Shown piece after piece: positions 10,628 through 28,774 of a DNA stretch of 64,000 bases (within the stretch, counting starts at the first letter, position 1; every line of letters starts with the position of its first letter). The notes beneath the pieces are model-generated. The model searched no databases. It was not told the DNA's origin and saw only the letters and a list, made by a program, of their open reading frames with translations. The stretch comes from Spiroplasma endosymbiont of Dioctria linearis (GTDB taxonomy: Bacteria; Bacillota_I; Bacilli_A; Mycoplasmatales; Mycoplasmataceae). The position numbers and the translations under genes are program-made. Location of the stretch: contig NZ_OZ034984.1 of assembly GCF_964030865.1 (NCBI RefSeq), forward strand, positions 744,001 through 808,000, written 5' to 3'.

Positions 10628-10881
10628 TTCATTTATTTATTAATATTTTATAATAATAACTTATTTAATAAAACTCACTCATTAATAGTCTATTAAATTT
10701 ATTTATTACAACTATAAAATAATTAGCCTTTTGGACAGTCTAATATCTTTTCTTTCTTTTTTTTTTTTTTTTGATAATGCGAAATTATAATTTCTTGTAA
10801 TTTCAAAATTATTATATCATAGTTAAAAAAATATTATAATTTTTAATTATAATATAGAATTTTTTCCACTATAAGTTAAAT
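10628..10881. other. AT-rich gap between converging fdx and mreB
   Basis: No gene is visible. The stretch holds a run of 16 T at 10757-10772, preceded by a pyrimidine tract and followed by GATAAT, which resembles a -10 box on the plus strand. No plus-strand coding region follows, so the box is not called a promoter. Confidence 0.5.
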
Positions 10882-22089: not shown

Positions 22090-24879
22090 TTAATAATTAT
22101 ACTTTGTACTTATTTTGGAATAAAATATATCTCCAACTATACCATTATTATAAATAGGTTGTATTCCTAAATATATATAATTTTCTGAGTTTTCATTAAG
22201 TTCTCTAATATAGTGACTATTTAAATTATTTTGACCTTGATAATATCATTTTCTACCATCGATTGAGTAATAAATTTGAAAATAACTTGCACTTGAGTTA
22301 TTTGTCTCTCAATTAAATCTAATATTTATATTATTATCATTTTTTTCTCTTTTAATAATATATTCACTATTTATTTTTGATACTATTGTTTCTTGATTGG
22401 AATCAATCTCATGCTTATTAATCTCAAATCCTCCAACAGAAAAAATAAAATTATTATTATTCTGTGGATTAATTTTTAATCCAAGTTTAGCAATTCTATT
22501 ATCTTTATTTATTCCTTGAGCAGACGATAAATCAGCACTAATTTTATATCATCCATCCTTATTTTTCTCTTCAATGATTGTATCAATACTTTTAGGTCCT
22601 TCATTTAATTTTGAGTCCGTATATGTTATTTGAGTATTATTTAAAATATCTTCTAATTGTAAATTTGAAGACTTACCTATTTTATCTTCATCACTTGTCT
22701 TTATATAAAAACTTACCTTATAATTACTTTTACTCAAATTAGTTCCCATTAAATTTCAAAAATAATCATTTTTTGATCATATGCCAGGTATAACTCTTCC
22801 ATCGTTATTAAAGTCATAACCCATTCCTATTGATATAGAGTTACCCTTCATATAAGGATTGTAATAATCATAATATGGTGCTAACTGACCATTTTTATTT
22901 ATTTGACTTACAAATTTTTCTCCATCATTTGTTTTTATTGAGTTTGTATTTGGGTTTATTATTGAACTTCAAAAATCCCATTGGTAAGTAGGATTTGAAT
23001 CTGCAATTCTGGAGTTAGTTCATGGATTAATTTTGTCATAAATAATCTCATTATTACTATCTCTATTTATAAAATATATTCCTGATCCTGTTGAAAAATA
23101 GGTTTTCATAGATGGATCATTTTCAATTTCTTCAGGTTGCTTATCAGAAAACTCACTATAGTTATTATCAATAATTCTATCCGCAACTATTGTTTTTTCT
23201 AAAAAACTATTACCTATTCCATAACTCTTATTGTACTTACCATTATTATTTAAAATAAAGTTATTTTTATAAGCTTCATTTCAATTTTTTTCCTCTGAAT
23301 TAAAAAAATCATATTTAATTCTTGGATCAGACATATAAATAGCTTCGATATTTTGTTGTCCCTGTCCAATCATCATATCGTATCCTTCAGCATCATTTTC
23401 TAAATAACCATTTTTACCAGTCATTTGATAAGTGGAATAGAGATTTGATATTTCTTGTTGCATTATTAAATATTTATATAGATTCTTTTCTTTCCAGATA
23501 TTTTTTGCTTTTAAAAAGTTTTTAAAGGACTTTGAATATTCATTTGCTCCACCAGATCCAAATATTGAAAAAGAATTATTAGGTTCATTATCATATTCAT
23601 TTAAATTATTTTTATTAAATATTTGATTTCTATAATCATAGGCACCAACACTAGGGATAGTAATACTTTCATTTAATAATGTATAAGCATTTTTTCTAGC
23701 TTCATTATTACCATTATGTTCTGAACTTATATATTCATTAAGATTAGGAGTTGAAATACCAAAATCTAGTTGTATAGAACTAGCACTTCTAGAGGCATCA
23801 ACTGTCTTTTTAGAATTTGGTCGTGATGAAACTTTATCATATTCTAAACTTCCATCATTTGTATAATAAACAATTGATAATCTTCTTCCGATTTTATCTT
23901 CTATTTTTTTTGCTTCCCTATTAAACTGCTCCATTATTTTATTTATCTCTGAATTTTTAATAACATACCCGTCACCTTGAGATCCATTTGCCTCATTATT
24001 TATCATTCAACCATCAAAATTGAATTTTATACATTGTTGAATTAAAATGTCCACCATTTTATAATTGCCATTTAAATCAATCTCTAAAATACTTTTTAGA
24101 GATTCTCTAGTTAAATCTTCTCAACCAGACATATATCAAAGACCTAATACTGGAACACCATTTTTGTGCATATATTCACTATAATCTGCAAATGATGGAG
24201 TTAATCAACCTTTATTTGTTATTGCTGGTCAAGTATACATTTGATGCATATAACTTAAATTTGTTAGGTTACCACCAAATGGATTTTTTGTTCCTAAAAT
24301 AGAACTTGATGAACTTGAAGGAGCATGAAACATATTGAAAAAACTACTTTTTTGTTGATTTTTTACAGTGCTTTTTGCAACATAATTTCTTGCTCTTAGC
24401 TTTTCTTTTGATATATTATATTTTAAATCCATATCTTTACCATCATTTCAAGTGGGAAGTGAATTAATATAATTAAATTTTCTAGATCTAGATTGAATTC
24501 CAAAATCTAATCATTTATTTCCATTTGGTCTATATGATTTTATTATTGGTGAACCTGTAGCTCCTTGTTTTTTTATAAAATTTGCTCCTTTATATGATGT
24601 AGCATAATTGTCATAGTCAAAAATTTTATCAACTACACCATTTGAGGAATCAGTTTTTTTTAAAAGTGAATCATTAAAAGCAATTCCACTTTTATCAAAT
24701 TGATCATAAAATCAATTATAACCATCTCCATCTTCTGTTTCTCCTGTACTTCAATTAAAATCAGGTAATCCTTCAATATAATTTCTTGTTGTTATATCTC
24801 CGATATTACAAGATACAGCACTTAAAGAAGCTCCTGAAATAATAAAGCCTACTAATAATAATTCAATTATTTTTTTCAT
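22090..24879 (-). CDS. GH85 endo-beta-N-acetylglucosaminidase, surface lipoprotein
   Basis: 929 residues. The signal peptide has its lipobox at SAVSC (Cys24), so the enzyme is lipid-anchored outside. The GH85 barrel is recognisable: MHQMYTWPAITNKGW near 211, GVPVLGLWYMSGWEDLT near 241, and the catalytic FDGWMINNE near 288, with N294 and E296 matching the N-x-E pair used in substrate-assisted catalysis. GH85 cuts the chitobiose core of N-glycans. The C-terminal 250 residues look like carbohydrate-binding and fibronectin-III-like modules (FNWETNNSSASYFQIYYSIDGRKWYY). It overlaps the upstream permease by 13 bases. Many TGA tryptophans. Confidence 0.88.
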
Positions 24880-25811
24880 ATTTTTTTATACCCTCCTTGC
24901 TTAATATTAATAAGCAGTGTAAAAAAAGAAATTCATAGCAAGGACATAACATAAGTAATTGGCAATATTATATTTGCTTTATTCGTTAAAAATGTAAATG
25001 GAATTTCTAATTTTGGATTTACTATTGTTTGTAATATATTAATTTTATACATTGTTATGTTAGTAATTGAAGATAAAAATAATCATTGAAAGGATTTTAT
25101 CGGCATCAAGTATCCAAATAAGTTTAATACAATAACTGCTCTATTATTCGTTATTAAATTTATATCAATTAAGCAATCTCCTAGTAATAAAAATACTATT
25201 ATTATTATTAAATTTATTGATTGAATAATAACTAAATTTTTAAACAGCATTGACATTAAATAACAAATGGCAAGTAGACATAACATATATAAGAATGAAG
25301 TAATTAACGAATTCAAAATACAAAAAAATAAATTAAAGTATTCTCATACATTATTATTAATGAAAAATATTTTTTGCATTGAAAAAAATAGATATTGAAA
25401 ATTTTTAAAATACAAAAAGCTATCTATAATATTTACAATAATTAAACAAAAAAATAAAGATAGAAAAGTTATTAATAAGGTACAAATTAATATTGAGAAA
25501 TATATTTTGAACTTATTTATCGCAAATATTTTAGCTTGTTTAACAAGAATACTTTGCTCTCAATTTGAAATCAATAAGGAGAAAGTAAATAAAGAAAAAG
25601 TAAAAGGTATTATAAATAAATTAAAAATCTGTCCACTACTTTCAGCATAGTCTTTATTACCAAAAGATGTTTTAATTAAGTATGCACTAATAAATATAAA
25701 AGTTGGTATTAATATTGCTAATACATATACTTTAAAGTTTTTAAATATAGTTTTAAAAACATAATTAAAAGTTGACCGAAATGATATATTGGATTTTAAA
25801 GAATTAAACAT
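24867..25811 (-). CDS. ABC-2-type transporter permease (second copy)
   Basis: 314 residues with about six membrane segments, starting with a short cytoplasmic leader (MFNSLKSNISFRSTFNYVFK) and a helix VYVLAILIPTFIFISAYLI. The arrangement, a large loop after the first helix then a cluster of helices, is that of ABC-2 permeases, mostly exporters. It ends NIKQGGYKKIWKK and overlaps the GH85 start by 13 bases, so GH85 is probably translated by coupling. What is transported is not known. Confidence 0.75.
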
Positions 25812-25818
25812 ATTTTAC

Positions 25819-26675
25819 CTACTTTCATTTAAATAATTTAATTGATAGATACGTTAAGATTGATACTAAAATAATTGAAATGACTACTAAAACATATATA
25901 TTAGTAATAAATGTGTAACTATGATCATCAGAAATAATTTGTTTTATTCCACCTCTAAAATCAACAAAGGTAAATGAAGCTGTAATTAGTAAAATTCAAA
26001 CCATATACTTTGTTATTGACATATAACCTAAGAAAGTTATAAATCAACTCCTAGTAGAAATAAACGAAGGTATAATAACATCAGACATAATTAAATAGAA
26101 AATAATAATTAAAATTGGAACTACTGCTTGAATATTTTTTGAATTAAATAGATTCATAATTATAACACAAGAAGAAAAAACAGTTATTTGAATTAAAATT
26201 GAGACAAAAATAAATCAAACCCAATTTCATCAAAATAGGTTTCCTAAATAATTAAAACTTATTTTAAACTGAACTTTAGAAATTAAATAGACAATTAATA
26301 TATTTAAAAGCTCTGCAGCAAAAGTAAAACATGTAGAACAAATTATAATCGATAAAATAATATCATATGGCTTAGTGCCTATAAATTTAAGTCTTTTAAT
26401 TAAAGACGTATCCTTTCACGAAAACAGCATACTAGAGAAATAAGCTCCAGTAACAAAAGAAGGAATCAGAAATAAAGAAGTCATTTGAGGTGGTAGTAAC
26501 TCAAATGTATTTGAATAATTTGTATAGCCTATAAAACAAATAATAGTAATTATTAATGAAGAAGCAGATATTATTATTCAAGCTCTTTCATTTCTTAAGC
26601 TTAATGATGTTATTATTGATATTGTTTTTTTGAAATTACTAACTCCTATTTTAAAATTACTATTATTTCTCATCA
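25819..26675 (-). CDS. ABC-2-type transporter permease (first copy); start requires a -1 frameshift or is broken
   Basis: About 285 residues with six membrane segments (RAWIIISASSLIITIICFIGY, LFLIPSFVTGAYFSSMLF and so on), ending SILTYLSIKLFKWK. The long frame has no ATG, GTG or TTG before its first helix. A good start, ATG 26675 with GAGGAAATTG upstream and overlapping the ATPase stop, reads MMRNNSNFKIGVVISKK in another frame and hits a stop 20 codons in. Slipping back one base at the A7 run (26624-26630) joins the two frames exactly. Programmed slippage, a contingency switch or a disrupted gene all remain possible. Confidence 0.65.
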
Positions 26676-27379
26676 TCAATTTCCTCATAATATTTTTCTA
26701 AAAAATATCTAATTGATCCATACTCTTTAATAATTTTTTTTACACTTTCATCCCTATAAATTTCACCTTTATTTAAAACTATTATCCTATTACATATTTT
26801 TTCAATTTCTTCAGGTATATGAGATATTACTATTAAAGTAATATCTTCTTTTTTTCTTAAATTATCAAAAAAATTAACTAGTTTGATTTGCATTTTTAAG
26901 TCAAGTCCTGTTATTAATTCATCTAAAATTAATATTTTTGGTTTTTTAATTATTGATATCATAGAGTTAAAGCGTTGTTGTTGACCACCAGATAAGTCAC
27001 TTAATCGTTTAGTTAAAATATCTTCAACCTCAAATATATTAATTAACTCTTTTATATATTCGTCTTTATTTCATTTTTTTGAAATTAACAAATTAAGTAA
27101 ATCTACCCCTCTTGTATTAAATGGTCAGTCTCCTTTTTGGAATTGTATTCCAATACTCTCTTTAATTTTATTATCAATTTCTTTATTTTCACTTATAAAA
27201 TTTACTTTACCTTCTGTTGGTTCACTTATTCCAGATATTATTTCTATAAGAGTAGTTTTACCACTACCATTTGCTCCTAAAATACCAATTGCCTCTCCCT
27301 TTGCAATTTCAAAATTTAGGTTTTTTAAAACTCATTTATTTTTTTCGAATTTTTTTGATAAATTTTCTATTTTAATCAT
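26663..27379 (-). CDS. ABC transporter ATP-binding protein
   Basis: 238 residues. Walker A is GILGANGSGKTT near residue 34, the signature is LSGGQQQRF near 130, Walker B is KILILDELITGLD (Leu replaces the usual Pro after DE), and the H-loop is VISHIPEE. AGAGGT precedes the ATG. It should pair with the two ABC-2 permeases that follow with overlaps. ABC-2 systems of this kind usually export peptides, lipids or polysaccharides, so import of glycans cannot be assumed. Confidence 0.92.
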
Positions 27380-27389
27380 TTTTATACCT

Positions 27390-28718
27390 CTAACTCATTT
27401 CACTATTTGCAAAAAGCAATAAGTTTCATGTTCTTTGTGTAAAATCCTTAAGCTGAGTATTAAATTCTATTCAAGGATTAAACGGTAGTTTCTCTCTATT
27501 GGAGTAGTTATTTGAAGTTTCTTCAATTTTATCAACAATAACTTTATCCTCATTTCCTTCTTCTGCTTTAATAAATTCAACTCAGTTATTTTGATCATAG
27601 CTAATATAAATGTATCTATTATCTGATTTTCCTAAATCAAATAAAAAGATTCTTAAATCATAAAATGAGTTATATTTATAGGCATAGTAAAGTAAAGACC
27701 CCGGACTATCTTGTCTGTATTCTTTTCCCTTATTATTAAAAACATTATCTATTCCTTCTAATGGTGCTGCTTTTTTTTGATACATTTCAGATTTCGGATC
27801 AATGAAATTAATATAATTTAAGGCAATCTCTGTATATATTTTTATTAAATTACTTGCAATATAACACTGTAAATTTTCATTATTAGAATAATATTGATTT
27901 CAATCTCACAGTTTGAATTGAATAAAACTATCCACTTTATTATCCTGGATACTAATATTTAATTCTTTTCTTCTATAATATGGATCAAATACATTTAAAG
28001 TTTCTTCTTCACCATTATTATTATTCTTTTTTGCAAGAAAATTTAATTTAACTACCTGACCAATATCATTTTCATTAACTTCCTCATTTGTTTTAAAAAA
28101 AATATTATCAGTATTATTTAAATTTACTAAGTTAAAATACTCATTTCCTGATTCATCTATAAAAGAATCTTCCTGATTTATATTAACTATATCTAATATT
28201 TTTTTATCACTTATTGAACTTTGATTAACATATAATTTAAATCCATTTTCCTCTAAAGCACTAAAGTTAGATATTTCATATCTTTCAACTTCATGCAAGG
28301 GAGATGCAGATGGACTATTATGTCCCATTACTTGTAAACCTAAATAAATTGCATCAACACGTTTACTTTTTATTCTTATTGGTTTTTTTTGCATTAAGTC
28401 AACACTAATTTCATCAACATTACCATTTTTAATTCTCTTTGCTTCATTTTCAAGCTCAACTTTATATTTTCAATCATAAGCAGCTGAGTAAGTTTGAGAA
28501 GAGTTTACAAGATTTTCTCAACTTGACCTATATTTTGGTTCTAAAGGAATATCTTTAAAATTTAATAAATTATCAAGGGCACCTGATCTACCCTCTTCTT
28601 TATTTTTAATTGTAGTGGTAATCAAAAATAAGGAAGAATATAATGGTAATACTGTTAATGCTGAGATTGCAAATATTAAAAAAATTTTGTTTTTAAAATT
28701 AATGATTCCCGATTTCAT
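27390..28718 (-). CDS. membrane-anchored extracellular protein, first gene of the GH85 operon
   Basis: 442 residues. A Lys-rich N-terminus and a single helix (about 11-38, IFLIFAISALTVLPLYSSLFLITTTI) form a signal anchor; no lipobox Cys. The rest is polar and Asn/Glu-rich with a mixed-strand look (VDAIYLGLQVMGHNSPSASP, GFKLYVNQSS). I recognise no family. ATG 28718 with AGAGGTT is chosen over a TTG at 28757, which falls inside the promoter. It lies 11 bases before the ABC ATPase. It could bind substrate for the glycosidase or transporter; that is a guess from context only. Confidence 0.75.
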
Positions 28719-28746: not shown

Positions 28747-28774
28747 ATTATAGACAAAAAAAAAAAAAAAACAA
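28747..28774 (-). promoter_or_regulatory. predicted promoter of the GH85-ABC operon with a T16 spacer tract
   Basis: On the minus strand: TTGTTT (-35), a 16-base spacer made of T13 plus GTC, then a perfect TATAAT (-10). The full homopolymer, 16 T on this strand, spans 28756-28771. A transcript would start near 28740 and leave a 21-base leader with AGAGGTT before the ATG. Changes in the tract length would change the -35/-10 spacing. Confidence 0.6.

Follow-up and report, generated by a model that had tools for sequence, protein, structure and literature searches.

A five-gene operon in the window (the whole stretch of DNA analyzed, 64,000 nt) is preceded by an uninterrupted run of 16 thymines, which may form the slippage-prone spacer of a putative sigma-70-type promoter and make that promoter a rheostat for a glycan operon; this reading is preferred tentatively, at a probability somewhat short of even. 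The organism is a mollicute (translation table 4) with a 1.23-Mb chromosome. Read 5' to 3' on the minus strand, on which all the operon features lie, the promoter region is GAATTG-T16-GTC-TATAAT-TTTAAAAGTTATAAAAGAGGTTAAAAAA-ATG. The homopolymer occupies positions 28756-28771 (A16 on the plus strand) and is followed by GTC (28753-28755) and a perfect TATAAT -10 box (28747-28752), 28 nt from the ATG of the first gene (28716-28718). Upstream, the tract abuts TTG (28772-28774), the conserved part of a -35-like hexamer, TTGTTT (28769-28774), that overlaps the tract and matches TTGACA at three of six positions. The initial annotation had placed a 16-nt, mostly T spacer between TTGTTT and TATAAT, and its coordinates and description were right: the spacer (28753-28768) consists of T13 and GTC. 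The operon promoter was not called by a generic consensus scan because TTGTTT agrees so poorly with the -35 consensus; promoter-like sites also arise by chance in AT-rich DNA, and three were found against 3.8 expected in shuffles. Several other tracts of the class described below are preceded by a GC-rich hairpin, but none was found at the operon tract, and its interpretation as a terminator tail was ruled out on that ground. The operon leader contains no detected RNA family or riboswitch.

The first of the five genes encodes a 442-aa membrane-anchored protein with an N-terminal membrane/signal segment (27390-28718). It is followed by an ABC transporter ATPase (26663-27412, as the ORF from the first TTG; PF00005, E = 2.9e-26, with the match within 26663-27391), proteins of 289 aa (25819-26688) and 314 aa (24867-25811) that have no Pfam or NCBIfam match, and a 929-aa GH85 endo-beta-N-acetylglucosaminidase-family protein (22090-24879; PF03644, E = 3.6e-13). 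Distant homologues of the first gene product in genomes G033, G031, and G005 are lipoproteins, which suggests that the gene encodes a surface component of the importer; the operon's own first protein has no lipobox. From their position in the operon, the 289-aa and 314-aa proteins are probably permeases. The operon would combine a surface protein, an ABC importer, and a GH85 enzyme in glycan harvesting. Relatives of the GH85 protein were not found in a collection of genome contigs.

Chance does not come close to explaining the T16 run at the operon. In the window, A or T runs take lengths of 1 to 8, followed after a gap by two runs of 16; a first-order Markov model of the window predicts ~37 runs with lengths of 9-14 and 0.15 with a length of 16. 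The second T16 (10757-10772, plus strand), of the same class, lies near an MreB-like gene, is not clearly a promoter spacer, and is T8 in the sister genome (G042). Pooled non-ORF runs from the window and from larger stretches of this genome and the sister genome numbered 230 at length 7, 76 at length 8, 5 at length 9, none at lengths 10-15, and 9 at length 16; the larger stretches were selected for their synteny to tract sites, a choice that bears on the 16 class and not on the missing middle. A geometric tail, which is conservative, predicts 37.5 runs of 9-14 (P ~4e-11). The whole genome holds 42 T/A tracts of at least 15 (four of 15, 21 of 16, 17 of 17, and zero of at least 18), and ORFs contain none of them (0/42). 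These 42 tracts fully explain the T12 word counts (121 and 102), so there are zero tracts of 12-14. Since this two-peaked distribution is genome-wide, one 16-T run in a promoter is not in itself evidence of a dedicated switch, and the description of the operon tract as a dedicated single-locus switch was dropped, the same tract class being present at 41 other places.

The two-peaked length distribution is a trait of the lineage. The share of runs of at least 10 that reach at least 15 is 85% in the genus, 73% in family f7, and 61% in family f3; low values were obtained for families f11 (16%), f5 (12%), f9 (4%), and f6 (3%). Within the lineage the set length differs between species. The mode is 16 in the sister G042, 16-17 in G033, and 17-27 in G040, and both G040 and G024 (16-23) have a broad range in place of the tight 16-17 seen here (loci L089-L107 and L274-L293 for the two genomes). 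Terminator tails hold T-tracts of the same 15-17 T, and because these and other sites share the lengths, promoter spacing alone does not set them; as the sole setter of the 16-17 length it was ruled out by the terminator tails together with the 17-27 range in G040. The mismatch-repair gene mutS1 (TIGR01070) was detected in 0 of 60 genomes of the family and in 11 of 14 controls. Slippage without mismatch repair is the likeliest cause of the tract lengths, and the absence of mutS1 alone leaves the two-peaked shape unexplained.

Tracts of this class are associated with promoter elements. A TTG is located 0-3 nt upstream in 21 of the 42, compared with a background of 8%, half of the tracts being directly preceded by TTG, and a -10-like hexamer is found downstream in 21 of 42 against a background of 20%. 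Genus-wide counts are 127 for TTGN-T12 and 34 for the mirrored control. The TTG-before-tract pattern agrees with the Spiroplasma melliferum promoter consensus, TTGACA / TAWAAT (PMC5138195). Lipoprotein genes are downstream of 13 of 42 tracts, whereas among background ORFs they number 5 of 119, an excess of about tenfold (p = 1.7e-5, uncorrected for the tandem lipoprotein array at 204-250 kb, which contributes to the excess and makes the sites non-independent). In that paralogous array (G000:C1:204000-250000, L012-L018, where G000 is the present genome), most genes carry T16-17 39-141 nt before the ATG. Elsewhere, 12 of the 19 TTG-Tn promoters in G023 and 10 of the 20 in G024 stand ahead of lipoprotein genes; in both genomes the TTG-Tn-TATAAT promoter tracts range from 16 to 23 and mostly serve such genes. 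At locus L042 (G000:C1:675921-675937), T17 directly precedes a CIRCE-like inverted repeat and then a Lon-protease-like gene, both named by eye; the sister sequence is T7CT7.

Species comparisons, with one genome per species throughout, separated tracts that persist from tracts that do not. Flanking sequences of G000 and G042 are ~90-98% identical, and of 16 common tracts, nine have the same length and seven are off by 1. The correlation of length between the sisters was not significant (9/16 equal vs 7.4 expected, P = 0.22), and it therefore speaks for neither fast nor slow turnover. At 14 further sites the tract exists in one sister species only, having been gained or lost, and the pairs are T7-T8 vs T16, T10 vs T16, interrupted runs such as T7CT7 or T8AT6 vs T16-17, and in one case A+T16 vs nothing; no pure intermediates of 11-14 T were seen among the sister-compared sites. 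Promoter-like tracts made up 14 of the 16 common tracts and 4 of the 14 gained or lost ones (Fisher p = 0.002; TTG alone, p = 0.011), in a test of 30 sites scored after the data had been seen, with promoter-likeness judged on one member per pair. Because the common tracts are mostly promoter-like, this result suggests that selection retains tracts lying in promoter spacers. Two sites record unusual events. At L024:2985-3016 (G000:C1:408070-408101), T16 is followed directly by A16 in a perfect 32-bp palindrome where the sister has T7GAAAAATA. At L030 (G000:C1:132916-132931), A+T16 faces a clean junction in the sister with no T-run seed, consistent with either a one-step insertion of 17 bp or a precise deletion.

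The operon tract itself is T16 in both G000 and G042, with the same TATAAT, and the two sequences are identical between the -35 region and the ATG, while farther upstream they have diverged. Upstream of operon orthologues at 48-56% identity the tract is absent and the spacers are not T-rich; a distant homologue in G033 (35%) has TTGA-T16-ATTATAAT. Orthologous promoter tracts anchored by both flanks in G023/G024 have lengths of 17/16, 17/18, 17/17, 16/21, 17/18, and 18/20, so spacer lengths change between species. The initial annotation had proposed that slippage of the tract might switch the whole operon. Its proposal gained from the promoter geometry, the membership of the tract in a genome- and family-wide class, the lipoprotein bias, the lack of mutS1, the retention of promoter tracts, and the differences of 0-5 T between G023 and G024; it found no counterpart in a length change at the operon tract, which is T16 in both sister species.

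A slippage-tuned operon promoter is plausible on this evidence and would operate as follows. Tract lengths would be set by replication slippage uncorrected by mismatch repair, such that runs of up to 8 are stable, runs of at least 9 are unstable, and survivors settle at 15-17, the presumed mutational attractor of the lineage. A tract between TTG and TATAAT would yield a spacer close to the usable range of 15-18 nt and be kept by selection, and tracts elsewhere, for example in terminator tails, would come and go. Lengths of 15-18 should coexist in a growing culture, and steps of one T, shifting the spacer within 15-18 nt, would move transcription of the whole operon up or down in each cell; the expected outcome is a rheostat with occasional near-OFF states, not a clean ON/OFF. 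Because spacer length affects the activity of sigma-70 promoters, operon expression should vary among cells. Use of the promoter, slippage within populations, and an effect on expression are steps that we infer. Several observations weigh against the tuned spacer: the operon tract is the same in two species, its -35 match is only 3/6, the orthologues at 48-56% identity have no tract, and a similar T-tract at the vpma promoter of Mycoplasma agalactiae reportedly gave no variation. Strict spacing control is also not evident in G024, where tract length and the gap to the -10 box show no compensation (r = 0.07). A wider proposal, that homopolymer length is bistable (up to 8 or 15-17), that any T-rich element passing the threshold turns into a slippery tract matching a promoter spacer in length, and that selected spacer tracts constitute self-renewing rheostat promoters genome-wide, at lipoprotein and nutrient-uptake genes, is a possibility that we regard as rather doubtful.

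A true ON/OFF switch like that of Mycoplasma hyorhinis vlp, in which one tract length is on and its neighbours are silent, would allow bet-hedging of glycan uptake. The architecture is the same and the length similar to that of known switches, the operon has a putative surface function, the class is biased to lipoprotein genes, and G024, where promoters of one architecture have tracts of 16-23 and spacers of 13-25, resembles a mixture of states; even so, nearly all tracts in the genome and its sister, those outside promoters included, are 16-17, and the constancy of the operon tract between the two species also makes such a switch unlikely. Comparable doubt attaches to the tract as a mutational by-product, that is, a slippage equilibrium whose small changes are tolerated by the polymerase so that expression is constitutive, as reported for vpma. 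The sharing of lengths with terminator tails and other places, the lineage-wide character of the length distribution, and the vpma precedent agree with a by-product, which would not account for the preferential retention of promoter-like tracts between species or their enrichment ahead of lipoprotein genes; it, too, is improbable. There is little to recommend a rigid pure-T DNA element that governs promoter strength or is used by a factor, irrespective of any switching by length. Its precedent would be the T-rich lipoprotein promoters of Borrelia, and at other sites a long tract is matched by an interrupted run of ~15 nt (T7CT7 at lon, T6AT8, T8AT6), so T-richness is possible without purity, but these interrupted sites are mostly terminator tails or ambiguous and not spacers, and the promoters of the 48-56% orthologues do without T-rich spacers. 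Finally, it is very improbable that the promoter is unused, with the operon starting elsewhere, or that tract lengths were distorted by sequencing or assembly: chance promoter-like sites are frequent here and homopolymers are error-prone in assemblies, but the sister species preserves the stretch between the -35 region and the ATG against a diverged upstream region, and the two-peaked pattern recurs in many independent genomes, yet not in all families.

The preferred reading, a spacer tuned by slippage, would have consequences beyond this operon. Should the class prove functional, spiroplasma-like bacteria, with their few transcription factors, would control much of their surface by spacer slippage, and the slippage-controlled set could be identified directly from genome sequence. 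The two-peaked lengths also make it possible to test how homopolymers arise, keep a set length, and disappear where mismatch repair is absent. The literature searched, which lacked most subscription journals, yielded no description of such a T-tract class in Spiroplasma; new here are its genome-wide scale, the sharp two-peaked lengths, their restriction to certain lineages, and the preferential retention of tracts at promoters.

Precedents exist for individual components of this arrangement. In the vlp genes of M. hyorhinis, slippage of a homopolymer in the spacer switches transcription (Citti and Wise 1995, as cited in PMC10502178 and PMC2268961). Those genes resemble the present class in that a homopolymer lies in the -35/-10 spacer of a mollicute promoter, in vlp that of surface lipoprotein genes and here often ahead of lipoprotein genes. 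They differ in that vlp has an adenine tract in one gene family with demonstrated switching, whereas the tracts described here are poly-T, occur at ~20 promoter-like sites in one genome, and include that of an operon whose first gene product has no lipobox. Spacer indels are also reported to turn transcription on and off in maa2 of Mycoplasma arthritidis and vmm of Mycoplasma mycoides (as cited in PMC2268961), but these are single genes for unrelated proteins, and the vmm spacer consists of TA dinucleotide tracts (PMC3053259). The main counter-precedent is vpma of M. agalactiae, likewise a mollicute lipoprotein promoter with homopolymeric T beside the -10, where the T-tract directly upstream of the -10 is reported to have no role in variation, which is due to Xer1 recombination (PMC2268961). 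A variable membrane-protein gene of Mycoplasma hominis, vmp, also has a 16-T tract upstream, although at 77 bp from the ATG (PMC524362). Outside the phylum, the lipoprotein genes of Borrelia have T-rich extended promoters, and the vlp poly-T of relapsing-fever species comprises 46-174 T (PMC2525819); the likeness is a T-rich element in surface-lipoprotein promoters, but there a single expression site is involved and a two-peaked genome-wide class is not reported. Published spacer tracts go both ways, with switching reported in vlp, maa2, and vmm and none in vpma. The architecture of the operon promoter is, by its sequence, that of the known vlp type, whose two defining features are variation in length and the resulting effect on transcription; maa2 is of this kind too.
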